Of a stretch of DNA of 29,111 nucleotides, positions 7,744 to 18,984 are shown piece by piece. Position 1 is the stretch's first letter. Each line of letters starts with the position of its first letter. Both the position numbers and the translations under genes were made by a program. Origin of the DNA: a virus; IMG/VR virus record IMGVR_UViG_3300032271_000475, positions 1 to 29,111 of that record. One strand, written 5' to 3'. The notes beneath the pieces are model-generated. The model ran no database searches. It was not told the DNA's origin and saw nothing but the letters and a program-made list of their open reading frames with translations.

Positions 7744-8051
7744 CCCGCCCTCTGTTTCCAAGACCGGCTGCGCGTGACCTCATACGTTTCGGCACGCCGC
7801 GCCGCCATGTGCCGCTCTTTGCATTCCAACTTCCGCGCCTCCATGCCCGCCAGTTCCTCGGGCGATGGCTCGTCGCCAATGGAATCGTAGTTGAGTTCCA
7901 CCGCACGCTTGGGCAAGGCGTGGATCGCGGAGAGCTTGGTCAGGTAGGCAATGCCCACGCCAAGCTCTCGCGCGATGTCGGCCCGCGTCAGCCGCTTATC
8001 ATTCCACAACCGAAACAAAAGCGGCACGCTGTAACGTCTTTTCCGTGCCAT
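7740..8051 (-). CDS. HTH DNA-binding protein, small regulator
   Basis: A 103-residue protein starting at ATG 8051, which overlaps the TGA of the clamp gene by one base. A basic start (MARKRRYSVPLLFRLW) leads into a helix-turn-helix, LTRADIARELGVGIAYLTKL (about residues 21-40). Next comes PSPEELAGMEARKLECKE and a charged tail. The architecture repeats that of the gene at 5079-5468. The first helices resemble the HTH of GcrA-like or small-terminase-like proteins. Probably a DNA-binding regulator of phage or host genes. A longer reading frame upstream is the clamp gene's shadow and was not used. Confidence 0.75.
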   Translation of the reverse strand: MARKRRYSVPLLFRLWNDKRLTRADIARELGVGIAYLTKLSAIHALPKRAVELNYDSIGDEPSPEELAGMEARKLECKERHMAARRAETYEVTRSRSWKQRAG

Positions 8052-9190
8052 CACGCATCCTTCGCCAACGGCATGATCACGCCCCAAAACTCTCCGCACC
8101 GCAGCACGACGGCGCTGGTGGCGTCCACGGATTCCACCTCGACGTTCGGCTCTTCGTCCGCCGGGATGCCCGTCAGAAACTGCACGACAAATCGCGGGTC
8201 CAGTTTCACGGTCGCGCCCACGCCGAACTGCACAACGTCGCACGTCACGCTGGATTCGCCGCTCTCGGCGGACTGCCCGTGCAACCAAATGCCGCTCTCG
8301 GAAACCGTGTAGTCCACGCCCAGGCTGTTCTCGGTCGTGACGATGGCCGCCGCACGGGTTGCAGCCAGCAGCTGGTCGCGGGCCACGGCCGTTGCTTCCA
8401 CGTCGCGTGTCGGGAACACGTCACGCCACTTGGGAAAACGCCCTTCGGTCAGCCGTGCCGTCACCGTCGTGCCGCCGATGGTTGCAACAAGCGTATTGGC
8501 TGACGCTTCCAGCTGCACGCTGGCCTCGTCGCCGGCCCGCTCTGCCAGACGGGCCAGCAGCTGCATCACCCGCTCGGGCACCAGCGTGCTTGAATCGTCC
8601 ACGGCCAGGTCGTGCTCGAGCTTCACAAGCGACAGCCGCCGGCCGTCAGTCGCCACCACCGAAACCTCGTCGCCTTTGATTTCAAGGCACACGGCACCAA
8701 GGGCGTACCTGCTGCTTTCGCTGTCGGCTGCGTACACCACGCCACGCACCGCCCGCACAAACTGATCCGCTGGCAGGCGCGTGATCGGTGCCACGCCCGG
8801 CGCGTCCATCTCGGGGTACTCGGCAGCCGACTCCGTGGGGATCGTCCACGTGCCGTGCCCCGCGGCCACGACGCACGACGTTTCTCCAGGCGTGATCGTC
8901 ACCTCGTCGGACGGCTGGCAGAGCGACAGGATCGACCACAGGCGAGCAAAAGGCACAAGCAGCGACAGCGTGCACGGAGAGTCACCCGCCCACAGTTCGT
9001 GTTCAATCTGCACTTCCAAGTCGGTGGCCGTGATCAGCCCGTTGGCAATCAGCACGTTTCGCAGGATGGGCTTCGGGTGGCGGTCGCCGCCCACGGCACC
9101 CTGCACAGCGGCCATCGCCGCCTTAAGGTTGCCTGCGCTCAACGTCGTTCCAGAGGGCCGGGCCTTTTTTCGTTCCTTCGTTGCGGTCAT
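8051..9190 (-). CDS. dnaN: DNA polymerase III beta-like sliding clamp
   Basis: A 379-residue protein of typical bacterial beta-clamp length (about 360-380), which forms a ring on DNA and tethers the polymerase. The N-terminal domain begins after a basic stretch with TLSAGNLKAAMAAVQGAV and ILRNVLIANGLITATDLEVQ, the classic DnaN order. VSVVATDGRRLSLVK in the middle is the strongest DnaN signature. RFPKWRDVFP and GIWLHGQSAESGE in domain 3 continue the match. The C-terminus GVIMPLAKDA resembles the clamp tail VIMPMRL. ATG 9190 has AAAGGA eight bases upstream, better than the upstream start in the same frame. No DNA polymerase is seen in the window, so it probably recruits the host enzyme. Confidence 0.92.
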   Translation of the reverse strand: MTATKERKKARPSGTTLSAGNLKAAMAAVQGAVGGDRHPKPILRNVLIANGLITATDLEVQIEHELWAGDSPCTLSLLVPFARLWSILSLCQPSDEVTITPGETSCVVAAGHGTWTIPTESAAEYPEMDAPGVAPITRLPADQFVRAVRGVVYAADSESSRYALGAVCLEIKGDEVSVVATDGRRLSLVKLEHDLAVDDSSTLVPERVMQLLARLAERAGDEASVQLEASANTLVATIGGTTVTARLTEGRFPKWRDVFPTRDVEATAVARDQLLAATRAAAIVTTENSLGVDYTVSESGIWLHGQSAESGESSVTCDVVQFGVGATVKLDPRFVVQFLTGIPADEEPNVEVESVDATSAVVLRCGEFWGVIMPLAKDA

Positions 9191-9227
9191 GTGTCGAATC
9201 CTTTCGAGTGAGAGAACAACCAACCAA

Positions 9228-9254
9228 AACGCCCAAACCAAACGTCAGGGCGTT
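9228..9254 (-). terminator. Possible hairpin terminator or attenuator upstream of dnaN
   Basis: On the minus strand, AACGCCC and GGGCGTT form a perfect 7-bp stem around a 13-base loop. A T-rich stretch containing TTTT follows directly. It sits after the stop of the 60-aa gene and before the clamp's ribosome binding site, so it could tune how much transcript reaches dnaN. The T-run is broken by G, so terminator strength is doubtful. Confidence 0.4.
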
Positions 9255-9295
9255 GATCGAGAAGCCGGCGCAAATAAGTACCAGTTGTGATACGG

Positions 9296-9478
9296 TCACT
9301 TGACGGCCTCCAGGTGCTCGAGGGTGTGAGCCTGCAGAATCAGCCGGTCGGCTTGTTGCTCAAGCGCCTTCGCGGCAATCAACAGGACGATGGCCGTCAT
9401 GTTGTCCGTCGTGTCCAGCGCGGCCCGGCGGCGGCACTGGTCCGCAACTTCACGGATCCCGAGGGGGGCGTGCCTCAT
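9296..9478 (-). CDS. Small hypothetical protein between initiator and clamp genes
   Basis: A 60-residue protein starting at ATG 9478 in an ATGA overlap with the initiator gene. It is helical: MRHAPLGIREVADQCRRRAA then MTAIVLLIAAKALEQQADRL, with a C-terminal EHLEAVK. It has no clear membrane segment or motif. The overlap and its charge pattern favour a real gene. A role next to the replication initiator is possible, such as an accessory factor, but nothing in the sequence shows it. Confidence 0.6.
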   Translation of the reverse strand: MRHAPLGIREVADQCRRRAALDTTDNMTAIVLLIAAKALEQQADRLILQAHTLEHLEAVK

Positions 9479-10023
9479 GCTGCCCCCCCTTCCTCTGCAC
9501 GGTCGTCCGGTTCCTGACCGGGCGAGCCGGGCGGATTGGCTGATTGAATCTCTCTATTGGTATTACCCTGAATACCAATAGAGATATTTGAGTAGGGGTC
9601 ACGTAGCGTGTGCGCTCTGTACACGCTACGTGTGCGCTCCGTACACGCTACGTGTGCGCTACGGTCACCGGTCGTGACCGGGGGGGTCACGCTACGTGAC
9701 CCTAGCGCACACGTAGCGTGACCGGGGGTAGCCAGTTCGTACTGGCTGCGATTGCTTCCGGTTCCACGCGAGACGAGGATTAAAACACCCTCGTCAAGCA
9801 GCTGCTGGATGCCACGCCGAACGCCGTTCGGGGTCACGCCGAGCACCTTGGCTGCCCCGCGAATGCTCATTTTCAGCGTGCACTTCTCAAAATCAGCCCA
9901 ATAAAGGGCGTAGCACACCATTAGGCGGGCTTCGCTGCCCATGCGGGCCAAAGCCCCGCCCTGGATAAGAGCCCTGTGGCGGCGTCTTAGTTCGCCCCTA
10001 GCGGTTGGCTTACGGTCAGGCAT
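9475..10023 (-). CDS. Winged-helix replication initiator-like protein carrying the putative origin
   Basis: A 182-residue protein. I start at ATG 10023, eight bases inside the primase-helicase gene, with DRKPTARGELRRRHRAL first. Residues about 28-95 (SEARLMVCYALYWADFEKC, then SIRGAAKVLGVTPNGVRRGI and LLDEGVLILVSRGTGSNRSQ) form a winged-helix domain like those in phage replication proteins and helicase loaders. The C-terminal half is low-complexity and Pro/Ser/Thr-rich; its DNA holds the 22-bp-periodic sites and the AT-rich inverted repeat. Lambda O is organised in a similar way, with a DNA-binding domain and the origin inside its own gene. The longer frame upstream is a shadow of the helicase gene. 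Confidence 0.8.
   Translation of the reverse strand: MPDRKPTARGELRRRHRALIQGGALARMGSEARLMVCYALYWADFEKCTLKMSIRGAAKVLGVTPNGVRRGIQQLLDEGVLILVSRGTGSNRSQYELATPGHATCALGSRSVTPPVTTGDRSAHVACTERTRSVYRAHTLRDPYSNISIGIQGNTNREIQSANPPGSPGQEPDDRAEEGGAA
9541..9728. other. Putative replication origin: 22-bp-periodic sites plus AT-rich hairpin
   Basis: Inside the initiator gene, the 11-mer CACGCTACGTG or its complement CACGTAGCGTG starts at 9600, 9622, 9644, 9688 and 9710, always a multiple of 22 bases apart. A degenerate copy, CACCGGTCGTG, fills the missing slot at 9666. 22 bp is about two helix turns, so all sites face the same side. 22 is not a multiple of 3, so the protein does not repeat and the DNA itself is conserved. 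GGTCAC and GTGACC arms frame several sites. An AT-rich stretch (about 9541-9595) lies beside the array. Iterons next to AT-rich DNA is the classical origin pattern; an operator array is the alternative. Confidence 0.75.
9551..9584. repeat. Perfect 14-bp inverted repeat with 6-base loop beside the iteron array
   Basis: TCTCTATTGGTATT (9551-9564) and AATACCAATAGAGA (9571-9584) are exact complements around ACCCTG. It is AT-rich in a GC-rich genome and lies 16 bases from the first 11-mer site. It may be the unwinding element of the origin or a signal for primase or ssDNA binding. A role as a transcription terminator is less likely because no T-run follows on either strand. Confidence 0.7.
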
Positions 10024-11773
10024 CGGTGCGGCTCCACGGGTCTTTGAACTCCTCAAACGGAGTTGTGATGGAGTCCACGAACCGCTGGTATTTCCCGTGG
10101 AACCACAGGTCGATGTCCTTCCGCTCGCCCTGGCGTAGCTTCTTGCAGTGCCACCGCACCAAAACCTCGCCGTCACCACCGACTTCGGTAGTTCGCTGCC
10201 CAAAAAGGAAGTTGTCCACGTCAAAATCAATCTGGTTTGATCCCTTGCCGATGTTGCCGATCTCGGTGTTGTGATCCACGCCCTTGGCGATATTCGTGAC
10301 CAGCACCGTGGCAATGTTCCGACTGTTCGTGATGTGTCTGAGTTTCTGCAGCACGTCAATGATTTCGCCGGTCTGGTCTGGAAAGTGCCTTGTGCTCCTG
10401 ATTAGCTGCAGGTAATCCACGATGAGCAGCTTCACCCCATCCTTCGCCACGGCCCGCTCGATCTTGTCCACGACCAGCGGGGCTTCAATAAGTTTCAGCC
10501 GGTCACCGATTTCGCCGGCCAAGTGCACGCCGACTTCACGGGCGTGCATGTCCTTGTGAATCACTTCCTGCAGTGTCAGGTGCGAAAAGTGCTTGCCGTC
10601 GCACCAGTACGTGACCGCTCGAGCAGCCAAGGCGCTACGTGTCATCTCGCCCAAGCACCACGCGGCATTCATCTCTGGGTGCTGGGTCAGGGCCATGATT
10701 GCCAGCTGCAGGGCAAAGGCAGACTTGCCAACGCCGGGGGCCGCCGCAATGGCCGTCATCTGCCCGAGGGGCAGGCCGCCGTCAAAGAGCAGGTCAAGCG
10801 ATGTCAGGCCGGTCGGCAGGGCCGGCGTTTCCTCCTGCTTCACCCAGGCGTCGATGGCGTCCACAAGCGTCGGGGTGGGAGTCTCGTCCACGGCATCCTC
10901 AACGGGCCGGGCCTCGTCCGCTGGGCCGAGAACAGGCAGCCGCTGCCGCTTCCATGCGTTGGCGATCTGCCTCGGGCAATCGTCAAGGTCGTCCTGCCGC
11001 AAGCCGACACGACGCATCCGACCCATGATGAGCGTCGTGGCCTCAGCCACGCCCCAGCCTCGAGCGGCCAAGTCGCAGGCCACGGTGAACATCGTCTGCC
11101 GCCGGCCGGCGGCGAGCGTAAATCCCTCCTCCACGAATCGCCGCGTCAGGTCGCTCATGCTCTTGGGCTGCACGACCACCGACTGCACCGCCTGCCGCGA
11201 AAGCCGTGCCAACGTGTAGACCCTCGTCGGATCGCAGTCCTTGAGCACCGACAGCGGGCGTTGCTCGTGTTTCCAATTCACGAATCCCGGTAGCCGCATG
11301 ATGCGTGGCCAATCGCAAACCGACTGATCGGAGCCGAGTGCCGAGGCAATCGCCTTCATGCGAACGTGCCACGCCTCGGCATCTGTCATGGGCTGATCGA
11401 GCCGCCACCAGGCGTGGATGCCGCCGCCGCTCTCAAGGATCGCTGTAGGCCACGGCAGATCCGCAGCCTTGATACGCCCCATGGCGTCTTCGTAGTCGGC
11501 ACCGCCATCAAAGTCAGCGAACAGGCAGCGGGCCAACTTCACGCCTTCGGCCTGGCTGGCACCAACTTCCTTCCTCGGGTTTGCCCCGAAGTAGGCGTGG
11601 ACGCGTTGGTGCTCATCGGCGTTCACGCGCTGCAGCCACTCCACGATGTCGGGGATTTCGGTGAGCGGCGACCACCTGCGGCCAGCCGATGGCGGCAGCG
11701 GGCGGAATTCGATGATGTCCTCGGGCTCAAAGATCGCGCCGAGAAAATCAATGCACTGAGAAAGCGTGTCCAT
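10016..11773 (-). CDS. Primase-helicase: AEP/RepB-like primase domain fused to DnaB-type helicase
   Basis: A 585-residue protein combining two replication activities. The N-terminal part (about 80-175) has LFADFDGGAD (acidic metal site), SGGGIHAWWRL (the His strand) and DWPRIMRLPGFVNWKH, the signature order of archaeo-eukaryotic-type/RepB-like primases. From about 310 on lies a RecA-fold DnaB-type helicase: Walker A APGVGKSAF (about 346) and Walker B LLIVDYLQLI (about 449), with NSRNIATVLVTNIAK further on. A central helical linker joins them. I prefer ATG 11773, with GGGAG nine bases upstream; a GTG at 11779 would make a GTGA overlap. It probably unwinds and primes phage DNA after loading at the origin in the next gene. 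Confidence 0.9.
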   Translation of the reverse strand: MDTLSQCIDFLGAIFEPEDIIEFRPLPPSAGRRWSPLTEIPDIVEWLQRVNADEHQRVHAYFGANPRKEVGASQAEGVKLARCLFADFDGGADYEDAMGRIKAADLPWPTAILESGGGIHAWWRLDQPMTDAEAWHVRMKAIASALGSDQSVCDWPRIMRLPGFVNWKHEQRPLSVLKDCDPTRVYTLARLSRQAVQSVVVQPKSMSDLTRRFVEEGFTLAAGRRQTMFTVACDLAARGWGVAEATTLIMGRMRRVGLRQDDLDDCPRQIANAWKRQRLPVLGPADEARPVEDAVDETPTPTLVDAIDAWVKQEETPALPTGLTSLDLLFDGGLPLGQMTAIAAAPGVGKSAFALQLAIMALTQHPEMNAAWCLGEMTRSALAARAVTYWCDGKHFSHLTLQEVIHKDMHAREVGVHLAGEIGDRLKLIEAPLVVDKIERAVAKDGVKLLIVDYLQLIRSTRHFPDQTGEIIDVLQKLRHITNSRNIATVLVTNIAKGVDHNTEIGNIGKGSNQIDFDVDNFLFGQRTTEVGGDGEVLVRWHCKKLRQGERKDIDLWFHGKYQRFVDSITTPFEEFKDPWSRTDA

Positions 11774-11775
11774 GC

Positions 11776-12324
11776 TCACCTACTCCCTTGTTTGCTGCCG
11801 CCGCGTAAATCAATCGCCACACGAGGATTTGTGTCGCCGTTGTCAGCGTAGGCGATGGTTGCGTTGAACCAGAGAACAAGCCGATCGGCGCCACGCCCTC
11901 GAGGATGTGCAACGCCGATCCGATGCTGGGCCATGACCGATTGAAGATCGTTCCCCGGTGACTCGCACGGCCAGATAAACACAAACCGAGACATAACCGC
12001 GAATCCGTTTGGCGTGTCCCAAACGCATCGCGTGTAGTCCATCGCTTGAGACACAACGCGACCAACCTTTGTCTCAGACTTTTTGCACTCAATGCCGACG
12101 ATACCCCATCGCCAGCCTTGCTCAATCAATTCCCTCGTCGGCTGCAGCAGAACGTCAATTCGCGCGCGACCGCCGCCAGCGGTGTCCATCCTTGGCTGCA
12201 GCATCCAACCGTTAACTTCCTGCATGACTAGCCAGTGTGCAGGGTTAACAATTGACAGCAGCGCCGCCACGGAATCGGGCTCAGTGGCGTATTCGCCGCA
12301 TGTCAAAACTTGTTCTTGAGACAT
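11776..12324 (-). CDS. PD-(D/E)XK-type nuclease
   Basis: A 182-residue protein. ARIDVLLQP (Asp57) followed by WGIVGIECKKSETKVG (Glu79, Lys81) is the D...E-x-K core of PD-(D/E)XK nucleases, and the helix VSQAMDYTRCVW after it fits the family. Such phage proteins resolve branched DNA, cut recombination intermediates or act as restriction-type enzymes. ATG 12324 has AAAGGAGG five bases upstream. It is encoded between the ParB-like gene and the primase-helicase in the recombination and replication operon, so processing of phage DNA is more likely than defence. The exact subfamily is not recognised. Confidence 0.8.
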   Translation of the reverse strand: MSQEQVLTCGEYATEPDSVAALLSIVNPAHWLVMQEVNGWMLQPRMDTAGGGRARIDVLLQPTRELIEQGWRWGIVGIECKKSETKVGRVVSQAMDYTRCVWDTPNGFAVMSRFVFIWPCESPGNDLQSVMAQHRIGVAHPRGRGADRLVLWFNATIAYADNGDTNPRVAIDLRGGSKQGSR

Positions 12325-14023: not shown

Positions 14024-14944
14024 TCACGATGTCGCTCCTGTTCCAGCACTCAGTGACGCCATCCGCTGGTCGATCTGGTCGGTCAGCATTCCGGCCTGGT
14101 TCTCGGTCAGTTCGCCGGCCGTGACGCGGGCCAGCACCTTCGGCCGCAGCCGCTCAAGTTGTGCTGCAGACGCACGAGCAATGGCCGCGCTTGTCTCGGT
14201 CAGCAACTTCGCCACGTCCACCGCAGGCTCGGTCTTAAGTGGCTTCGCCTCCGGTTCCTGCCCGCCCGCCAGCCACTCGGCCAGTTTGCGGCCTGTGTCC
14301 ACCGTGATCGGCTTTGGATCGCCCGCGAACACCCCCGTGCGGTCCTTGCTGACGGTGGCGAAGTGCCCGTCGTGGATCACGTCCAGCACGGTCGTGAATT
14401 CAAACTCCAAGCCGTCGCGGGCCTCAAGCTTCATCCCGAGCTTCGCCACCTTCTTCTTGCCGTGGTCGTCCACCTGGGCCGTCTCGGTCTTGGACCGCCC
14501 GCTGCAGATGATGTGGGCCGGTGACCGCAGGAGTTTGTCCACGAACATGCGCCAGCGTGGCGTGATGACGCTGAACGCCGACCACGTGTTCCCGCGAAAC
14601 TGCGCCTTCGCAATCTCCTCGAGCAGTTCAAGGCAGCCGCCCGTCCCGCTCCAGCAGTGCGTCACCGAATCCACGATGATGACTTCGTAGCCGGCGTCTT
14701 CGGCCGCCTGGATCGCCTCGATGTACCGCTCTGGCGTGAACGGTGGCCGCAGGTCGATCACGTCGAAATCGTGAAGGTGGTCATACAAATCGGATGACCC
14801 CTCCTCCGTGTCAATCACGACCGTCCTGCCGCCAAGTCCCTTGGCGATCTGAAGAGCGCCCCACGTCTTACCGCTGCCGCTGGGGCCGGTGAGGAGAAGC
14901 CGCAGTTTGGTGGCACTGCGACGGGCCTTGCGAATCTGAACCAT
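14024..14944 (-). CDS. Sak4-like RecA-fold ATPase (AAA_24)
   Basis: A 306-residue protein. Walker A is LLLTGPSGSGKTWGA (about residues 17-30) and Walker B YEVIIVDSVTHCWSG (about 86-100); between them TVVIDTEEGSSDLYD continues the RecA-like core. SPAHIICSGRSKTETAQ follows later. This matches the AAA_24/Sak4-like group of phage single-strand annealing or recombination ATPases, which load with an SSB partner, and the SSB-like gene follows directly. A C-terminal helical region (ITAELTENQ-like, with LTDQIDQRMASL) may bind the partner. ATG 14944 is preceded by AAAGGGA. It probably starts recombination or annealing of phage DNA. Confidence 0.85.
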   Translation of the reverse strand: MVQIRKARRSATKLRLLLTGPSGSGKTWGALQIAKGLGGRTVVIDTEEGSSDLYDHLHDFDVIDLRPPFTPERYIEAIQAAEDAGYEVIIVDSVTHCWSGTGGCLELLEEIAKAQFRGNTWSAFSVITPRWRMFVDKLLRSPAHIICSGRSKTETAQVDDHGKKKVAKLGMKLEARDGLEFEFTTVLDVIHDGHFATVSKDRTGVFAGDPKPITVDTGRKLAEWLAGGQEPEAKPLKTEPAVDVAKLLTETSAAIARASAAQLERLRPKVLARVTAGELTENQAGMLTDQIDQRMASLSAGTGATS

Positions 14945-17816: not shown

Positions 17817-18818
17817 TCAAGCCGTCCTTACCGTGCCGTCGTGCATCACCCTGTAGTTATGCACGTCGAACGCGCCGCCCTTATGTATGGCGACCATGGA
17901 AAATCCCCAGTTCCACCGATTAATGCGGGCGTAGTCGGGCCGCAGATCGCACAGACAGCCGGTTGACCAGCACCCCGTTTCTTTGTGCCACATATCGCTT
18001 TCGGCGTGGTTGCTTGTGCGGTGGGAATGGCCCACCATGACCGTGGAAAGCGTTTTCATGAACGCGCCACGGGCGACGTTGACGGGAGCGGCCATGCCGC
18101 TGGGCAGCTCGTGACCGTGCAGCACGGGCAACTTCCCAAGCATCACGGGCCGCTTGTCCTCCACGAGCTCAATGCCGTACTCGCTAAACCCCAGCCAAGC
18201 CGTCAGGCTCATGCGGGGATCGTCTGAAATCTCGGCGGCGTGCTGCCACAACCAATGCTGCCAGCGCTCTTCGTGGTTGCCCGCCTTAAACACGATGGGC
18301 ATATTGGGGAACTGCTGTCGCAGGTAGGCGATAAACGCTCGCACGGCCTCAAGCTCGCCCTTGAAGTCCCGCTGCTTCGGGTCTTTCGTGTAGCGGCTGA
18401 TGGCGTAGAAGTCTGCGATGTCGCCATTTAGCAACAGGCCGGATAGGTTTTGCTGCTTCAGAAATCCAACCGCCGCAGCCACGGCTATCTCGGAGTGATA
18501 CGGCACGTGAACGTCTGACAGGATGCCGACGTTGCCCACTACGTTCATCCGGTGTGCGGACCACGTCTCGGCCATGCTCTTGGGCATGGGCAGGATCTCG
18601 CCAGCCGTGCGCGGTGCTCGAGGTGCCACGGGTTTGATTTGTTTGCGATGCTTTTTCCCGTGCACCCCAAACTGCCGCTGGATGCGAAACCGGGCTTGCT
18701 CAATGGTGATTGCCCCGTTGGCCTCTTTCACCAGGCGGCGCGCGAGCGTTCTGGCCGGCGCGTCTGGGTGCATGCGGGCGAGTCGCTTGGCAATCTCCGT
18801 AATCAGATCACCCGCCAT
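17817..18818 (-). CDS. Calcineurin-like metallophosphoesterase
   Basis: A 333-residue protein. After a basic, helical N-terminus (about 1-90) comes the catalytic domain with all metal motifs in order: GILSDVHVP (Asp102, His104), LLLNGDIADF (Asp133), KAGNHEERW (Asn181, His182), a lone His pair in VLHGHELPSG and VMVGHSHRT (His264, His266). These bind two metals and cut phosphoester bonds. Phages use such enzymes on DNA ends, nucleotides, RNA or protein phosphate. The N-terminal part may bind DNA. ATG 18818 has GGAGG seven bases upstream; the longer frame in front is a shadow. It lies between tail and lysogeny genes, which does not settle the substrate. Confidence 0.88.
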   Translation of the reverse strand: MAGDLITEIAKRLARMHPDAPARTLARRLVKEANGAITIEQARFRIQRQFGVHGKKHRKQIKPVAPRAPRTAGEILPMPKSMAETWSAHRMNVVGNVGILSDVHVPYHSEIAVAAAVGFLKQQNLSGLLLNGDIADFYAISRYTKDPKQRDFKGELEAVRAFIAYLRQQFPNMPIVFKAGNHEERWQHWLWQHAAEISDDPRMSLTAWLGFSEYGIELVEDKRPVMLGKLPVLHGHELPSGMAAPVNVARGAFMKTLSTVMVGHSHRTSNHAESDMWHKETGCWSTGCLCDLRPDYARINRWNWGFSMVAIHKGGAFDVHNYRVMHDGTVRTA

Positions 18819-18984
18819 GCGTCTTCCTCCGTGCCTTTGTCGGCTTCGGCTTGGGCTTCGCAGATCGCCGCAGAACCATGTTGCCGTCATCGTCCATGGT
18901 GAACGGCACAGGCTCGTCATCCTCGACGGGCTCGGCGTCAAACTGCGGGCGGGCTGCCTTGGGCTTGCTGGGCTTCTTGGGCAC
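18808..18984 (-). CDS. 58-aa acidic/basic hypothetical protein overlapping its neighbour
   Basis: A short frame from GTG 18984 to TGA 18808, overlapping the end of the gene at 18938-19393 by 47 bases in another phase and the phosphoesterase start by 11. The product has a Lys/Pro-rich start (PKKPSKPKAARPQF), an acidic middle (EDDEPVPFTMDDDGNMVLRR) and a basic tail (KPKPKPTKARRKTHGG). The composition looks like a small nucleic-acid-binding or disordered linker protein. GAGG lies six bases before the GTG. It covers a stretch that otherwise has no gene. Function unknown and reality only fairly likely. Confidence 0.5.
   Translation of the reverse strand: MPKKPSKPKAARPQFDAEPVEDDEPVPFTMDDDGNMVLRRSAKPKPKPTKARRKTHGG

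Follow-up and report, generated by a model that had tools for sequence, protein, structure and literature searches.

A probable tailed-phage replication origin embedded in its own initiator gene

Known systems and gene layout of the locus

Origins inside initiator genes and hairpins for RepB' priming are already known (PMC7466680, PMC5703833, PMC6316719, PMC4434180, PMC4234260), so the origin proposed here does not form a new category. In lambda and the Stx phages, the origin is located inside the initiator gene and has 4-6 iterons beside an AT-rich region; the lambda iteron is a 19-bp imperfect inverted repeat (PMC7466680). The origin-binding protein of SPP1, gp38, has its direct-repeat binding sites in the very gene that encodes it, gene 38 (oriL), next to an AT-rich unwinding element (PMC6316719). 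The N-terminal winged helix of the pSK41 initiator (RepA_N) binds boxes inside the rep gene, and the linker encoded there is dispensable (PMC5703833). In a repABC plasmid the origin lies within repC (PMC3155836). The oriV of RSF1010 carries iterons beside the short hairpins ssiA and ssiB, which are recognised by the RepB' primase after unwinding (PMC4234260, PMC4434180). In RK2, the repeats of the unwinding element are bound specifically as single strands by winged-helix initiators (PMC4081077).

The window analyzed here is the whole 29,111-base IMG/VR viral contig IMGVR_UViG_3300032271_000475, which belongs to an uncultured bacterial virus. The putative winged-helix initiator gene (9475 to 10023, minus strand, ATG at 10023) encodes 182 amino acids, and its role is suggested by weak PHROG matches of family members and by fold matches. 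Its start is overlapped by 8 nt by the end of the primase-helicase gene (10016 to 11779, minus strand). The neighbouring primase-helicase had been recognised from the sequence alone, and the gene directly upstream indeed encodes one: its N-terminal half is a RepB-type primase of the archaeo-eukaryotic type, joined to a DnaB-like helicase. The primase domain matches PF16793 with 33.1 bits at a cut-off of 24.3. The predicted model of this half, with a modest mean confidence of 63, matches S-2L PrimPol, RepB' alone (3h20) and RepB' on its initiator DNA (3h25). A separate helicase loader was not identified in this analysis. Downstream of the initiator gene lies a phage-encoded DNA polymerase III beta-type clamp gene (8051 to 9193, minus strand), as in most relatives, and terminase, portal and tape-measure genes of tailed phages are present in the relatives. 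Neither BLASTN nor TBLASTN found a match to the region or the initiator in annotated phages. The initiator and the primase-helicase found no relative in the GTDB species genomes, and no host or prophage is therefore assigned. The probable origin belongs to an uncultured phage group with no close relative found in either collection.

Residues 1-100 of the initiator are predicted to fold as a winged helix, in agreement with the sequence-only reading. Residues 101-182 are predicted to be disordered, and the array and the hairpin described below are encoded there, which places the array where the protein is likely to tolerate change. The initiator of the window reaches no Pfam cut-off. Members of its family show weak PHROG matches to replication-initiation and O-like families, the best O-like value being 0.0017 and restricted to some members. 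When solved structures were searched by sequence with the initiator profile, no significant match was obtained; fold matches include a Rep-DNA complex (5kbj) and phage replication proteins.

The locus resembles lambda O and ori-lambda in that the origin would lie within the initiator gene, with inverted-repeat iterons adjoining an AT-rich region. It differs in that the initiator has no significant sequence match to O beyond the weak PHROG hits of some family members and no predicted folded C-terminal domain, the iterons are unrelated and spaced at 22 bp, the virus supplies its own primase as one polypeptide with the helicase, and the AT-rich element contains a covarying hairpin (H1). The sequence-only reading had also set the locus apart from lambda by the orientation and spacing of its sites. 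The spacing does differ; the contrast in orientation was overstated, as the lambda iteron is itself an inverted repeat. The fold match to 5kbj links the initiator to pSK41, but RepA_N is not among the Pfam matches obtained, no C-terminal DnaG-interaction domain is visible, and the description of pSK41 contains no hairpin like H1 (PMC5703833). With RSF1010 (IncQ; RepC, RepA and RepB') the locus shares a homologous PF16793 primase domain and iterons beside a hairpin, a likeness of architecture. In contrast to RSF1010, primase and helicase are fused here, the helicase is DnaB-like and the iterons lie inside the initiator gene. SPP1 differs by its separate loader, its use of the host primase and its second origin, whereas one array per record was found here.

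The iteron array and its conservation

The array begins about 300 nt inside the initiator gene, so that a predicted DNA-binding protein has regularly spaced repeats in the DNA that encodes it. The five exact 11-mers of the sequence-only reading (CACGCTACGTG or its complement at 9600, 9622, 9644, 9688 and 9710) were recovered, with no further copy anywhere in the 29,111-base record. Using a motif defined from the relatives, the iteron can be described as a 17-bp palindrome, G-NN-CAC-N5-GTG-NN-C. The copy at 9666, formerly regarded as degenerate, reads CACCGGTCGTG on the plus strand and is an exact match to this motif. All six slots in the perfect 22-bp register are therefore exact palindrome matches. 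In gene order they are located at 9707 to 9723 (centre 9715), 9685 to 9701 (9693), 9663 to 9679 (9671, the supposedly degenerate copy), 9641 to 9657 (9649), 9619 to 9635 (9627) and 9597 to 9613 (9605), the last being closest to the hairpin.

Coding does not explain the repeat, as had been argued from the 22-bp period: in 5000 synonymous recodings that kept the protein sequence, the longest exact 22-bp chain had 3 members, compared to 6 observed. The accompanying statement that the amino acids do not repeat was incorrect. RSV recurs 22 residues apart, because three steps of 22 bp make 66 bp, or 22 residues. The two orientations reported for the sites come down to the central triplet, CTA or TAG, the rest of the site being palindromic. 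Where this triplet is in frame it is TAG in none and CTA in 11 cases; out of frame it is TAG in 17 and CTA in 3. TAG is absent from the in-frame position and replaced by CTA because it would be a stop codon.

Relatives were gathered independently with the initiator (20 loci) and with the primase-helicase (45 loci), and 43 of the 45 primase-helicase loci had enough downstream sequence. The sequence-only reading had asked whether relatives might keep the protein and lack the repeat. A 22-bp array was found at this place in 43 of 43 relatives, a count that is not one of independent loci since many are near-copies of each other; the distinct set comprises about 24-28. The CAC/GTG palindrome is present in 36 of the 43 and a different palindrome, CC-N7-GG, in 7. 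Most of the 43 arrays have 6-8 sites. The 36 CAC-N5-GTG loci have chains of 4 to 8 members in 22-bp steps, and a single 23-bp step is conserved in several clades. The chain of 4 (locus L053) was cut short by the strict pattern, since the same contig (L024) has further sites with TAC/GTA half-sites. Elsewhere in a locus the longest chain has 3 members, and other spacings give 3 at most. Each of 11 whole records searched contains a single array.

Although site selection made no use of the flanking G and C, all 74 of the 74 representative sites carry both. In a second set, where they were part of a one-mismatch selection, they were found in 142 and 145 of 145 sites. Among 18 representatives, consensus columns of the array show 99.2, 99.2 and 99.3% identity at codon positions 1, 2 and 3; acceptance of sites with up to two mismatches inflates these values somewhat but cannot explain the missing codon pattern. 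Non-consensus columns of the array are at 42, 38 and 42%, with no codon bias; for the winged-helix domain encoded by these genes the values are 61, 71 and 43%, the usual coding pattern. Conservation of about 99% at all three codon positions indicates selection acting on DNA. Judged from these alignments, the repeats are selected as DNA and not as protein.

Together with the adjacent AT-rich hairpin and the upstream primase-helicase, the 43 arrays and their DNA-level conservation support the replication origin suggested by the sequence-only reading. We consider the locus very probably a tailed-phage origin embedded in its own initiator gene. Against this stand the missing Pfam assignment of the initiator, the lack of an identified separate helicase loader and the cumulative GC skew. 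The skew plot, proposed earlier as a check, was made for eight contigs; it is monotone, with no inflection at the array, and uninformative.

The AT-rich element, its hairpin and alternative readings

Next to iteron 6 lies a probable DNA unwinding element (9541 to 9596), with 66% AT in a record of 39% AT. In composition, no sampled 52-bp window of the record was equally AT-rich. Across the loci, the H1 region has 63% AT compared to 37% for the loci overall. The AT-rich inverted repeat noted earlier is perfect over 14 bp (9551-9564/9571-9584) and extends to 18 bp at 94%. It forms the H1 hairpin (9551 to 9584) with a 6-nt loop and its apex at 9567/9568; the DNA fold has -13.2 kcal/mol (z -6.7). 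Iteron 6 has its centre 37-38 bp away from this apex. The distance between apex and last iteron is identical in 23 of 28 distinct loci and within 1.5 bp in the rest, except for L053 with its cut chain.

The pairing of H1 covaries. In 24 distinct loci, 88% of the 14 pairs are Watson-Crick, 29 additional pair types occur and the eleven inner pairs contain no G-U; with one arm shifted by 1-3 bases, Watson-Crick pairing falls to 26-30%. Watson-Crick covariation without inner G-U favours a structure in DNA. Many relatives share the stem TTGGTA...TACCAA, and in four loci (L061, L081, L085 and L092) the stem sequence is very different and pairing persists. H1 was also considered as a terminator, which was dropped as it is AT-rich and not followed by a T run.

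Short CAGT/CAAT-like direct repeats, absent from the sequence-only reading, overlap the hairpin in the window (9541-9596) and in the relatives L050-L093. In 23 of 24 loci, the pattern CA[AG][TGA] is repeated roughly once per helical turn, at offsets of about -22, -12, -1, +9 and +21 relative to the apex, and CA-R stands at the H1 loop in 23 of 24. There are 4.4 copies per segment compared to 1.7 in shuffles, an enrichment that is not a blind test since the pattern was picked after viewing the alignment. The pattern has support from L061 and L081, whose divergent stems retain CAGT in the loop and at the outer positions, and from seven loci that tolerate a G.G mismatch where both arms read CAGT. 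With the pattern from the relatives, they were placed by hand in the window, all on the minus strand: CAAA at 9587 to 9590 (offset -22 from the apex), CAGG in the H1 loop at 9567 to 9570 (-2), CAAT in the 3' arm at 9556 to 9559 (+9) and CAAT beyond H1 at 9543 to 9546 (+22).

A second, GC-rich hairpin, H2 (9507 to 9521), lies about 53 bp past the H1 apex; in relatives it is found at about +47.5 or +53.5. Its paired stem is variable, with 8-11 bp in many relatives and a weak 5 bp in the window. In some relatives, TTATCCA near H1 may resemble a DnaA-box.

We infer the following order of events. Winged-helix dimers would bind the six palindromes, which are two helical turns apart and would thus present all sites on one DNA face. 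The initiator-iteron complex would then melt the AT-rich element 37-38 bp away, and the CAGT-like repeats on the opened strand would be likely single-strand contacts for the initiator or the helicase. The opened strand may fold into H1 and be recognised by the RepB-like primase domain, so that helicase loading and first priming would take place together. A covarying DNA hairpin at a fixed distance is consistent with priming at an ssi-type hairpin; nevertheless, we put recognition of H1 by the primase at somewhat under an even chance.

H1 might be a double-stranded palindrome bound by a host factor or the initiator, and not a single-stranded primase start. This concerns one step of the explanation and not the origin itself, and we hold it to be possible but clearly short of even. 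The stem common to many relatives would suit a duplex site, and missing G-U pairs are as compatible with duplex DNA as with a hairpin in DNA. The four divergent stems with preserved pairing, the CA-R at the loop and the resemblance of the primase to RepB', a hairpin recogniser (PMC4434180), speak against it. A stretch inside H1 could bind a host protein instead.

The best PDB fold matches of the initiator also include the MarR, ArsR and CodY families. Winged-helix folds are common in regulators, and autoregulation often goes with initiators. The array could thus be an operator from which the protein regulates transcription of downstream genes out of its own coding region. However, the array starts far inside the gene, and the first downstream genes vary among relatives, whereas the array and the hairpin do not. 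An operator also leaves the AT-rich element at its fixed distance and the constant linkage to the primase-helicase unexplained, and this reading is very improbable.

H1 is transcribed and precedes the next gene, and it could in principle be an RNA structure that forms in the initiator mRNA and serves translation or transcription without any connection to the array. The missing inner G-U pairs argue against this. Its position is moreover fixed relative to the array and not to the gene end: the distance to the stop codon is mostly 75-214 nt across relatives, negative values reflecting truncated or mis-framed ORFs. The automated hairpin layout mis-scored L053 and L063/L091, where a second hairpin was picked in the stop-codon layout; L063 is right in the apex-distance layout. 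Rfam gave no match at the gathering threshold over the whole window, and an RNA role is highly improbable. On 9200-10100 just one microRNA model appeared, far under its gathering score, which was rejected as a chance match on palindromes.

Partition sites can also hold palindromes in helical register, but a centromere-like site bound by the winged-helix protein is extremely improbable, as a partial scan of the proteins found no partition gene, the neighbours are replication genes and a centromere could do without an AT-rich hairpin that covaries and keeps its distance.

Iteron types and neighbouring genes

In both trees, the seven loci with CC-N7-GG group as a single clade (support 100/100). 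The palindrome they carry has an outer G and C, less regular in L077, and occurs in about seven copies at 22 bp. These loci retain the place and spacing of the iterons as well as the hairpin, both in its distance and in its sequence. On the stem branch of this clade, the winged-helix domain shows 1.35 changes per column compared to 0.31 in the helicase part. Among the columns setting the clade apart are some in the recognition-helix region, with P/T-N replaced by T-S and Q by E, and those of a change from SEGRL to AQGLR. In the sequences of this clade, iteron and initiator change together, an indirect sign that the encoded protein may bind the repeats; the winged-helix domain may have diverged fast or have been replaced.

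For most of the primase relatives lying further away (L136 onward), a tandem-repeat search gave no such array; those inspected have other genes downstream. A third iteron type, three non-palindromic 22-bp direct repeats (GGGGCTATANNATCAC) after the domain, was found in two distant contigs, L135/L175 and its near-copy L176 (L135 6680-7234; L176 1008-1568). The primase of L135/L175 is about 49% identical, and the winged-helix protein is barely alignable to that of the window (24% over 58 residues). Beside these iterons lies an AT-rich stretch with CAAA/CAAG repeats.

Tentatively, the origin may be modular, a proposal we rate as rather less than evenly probable. An exchangeable initiator would read rewritable iterons, and the primase-helicase would read the constant hairpin and the CAGT-like repeats and load itself without a separate loader. 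In that case, a phage lineage could acquire a new origin specificity and leave its replication machine as it is. The loci form a natural series in which the origin geometry is kept and the recognition sequence rewritten. With roughly 250 bp of DNA and two proteins, it can therefore be tested how origin specificity evolves and how initiator, unwinding element and primase hairpin are coupled.

The window also contains an AAA_24/Sak4-like ATPase gene (14024-14944; PF13479, phrog_1366), which occurs in the same replication region of several relatives, and a metallo-phosphoesterase gene (17817-18941; phrog_221). The first gene downstream of the initiator varies among relatives and is a small ORF or encodes a LexA-like domain. 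In many relatives, the next protein is short, has no evident protease domain and resembles the LexA-type DNA-binding domain (PF01726 in two examples). It is located at about 6350-6590 in L067 and downstream of the array in L009, L011, L012 and L017.
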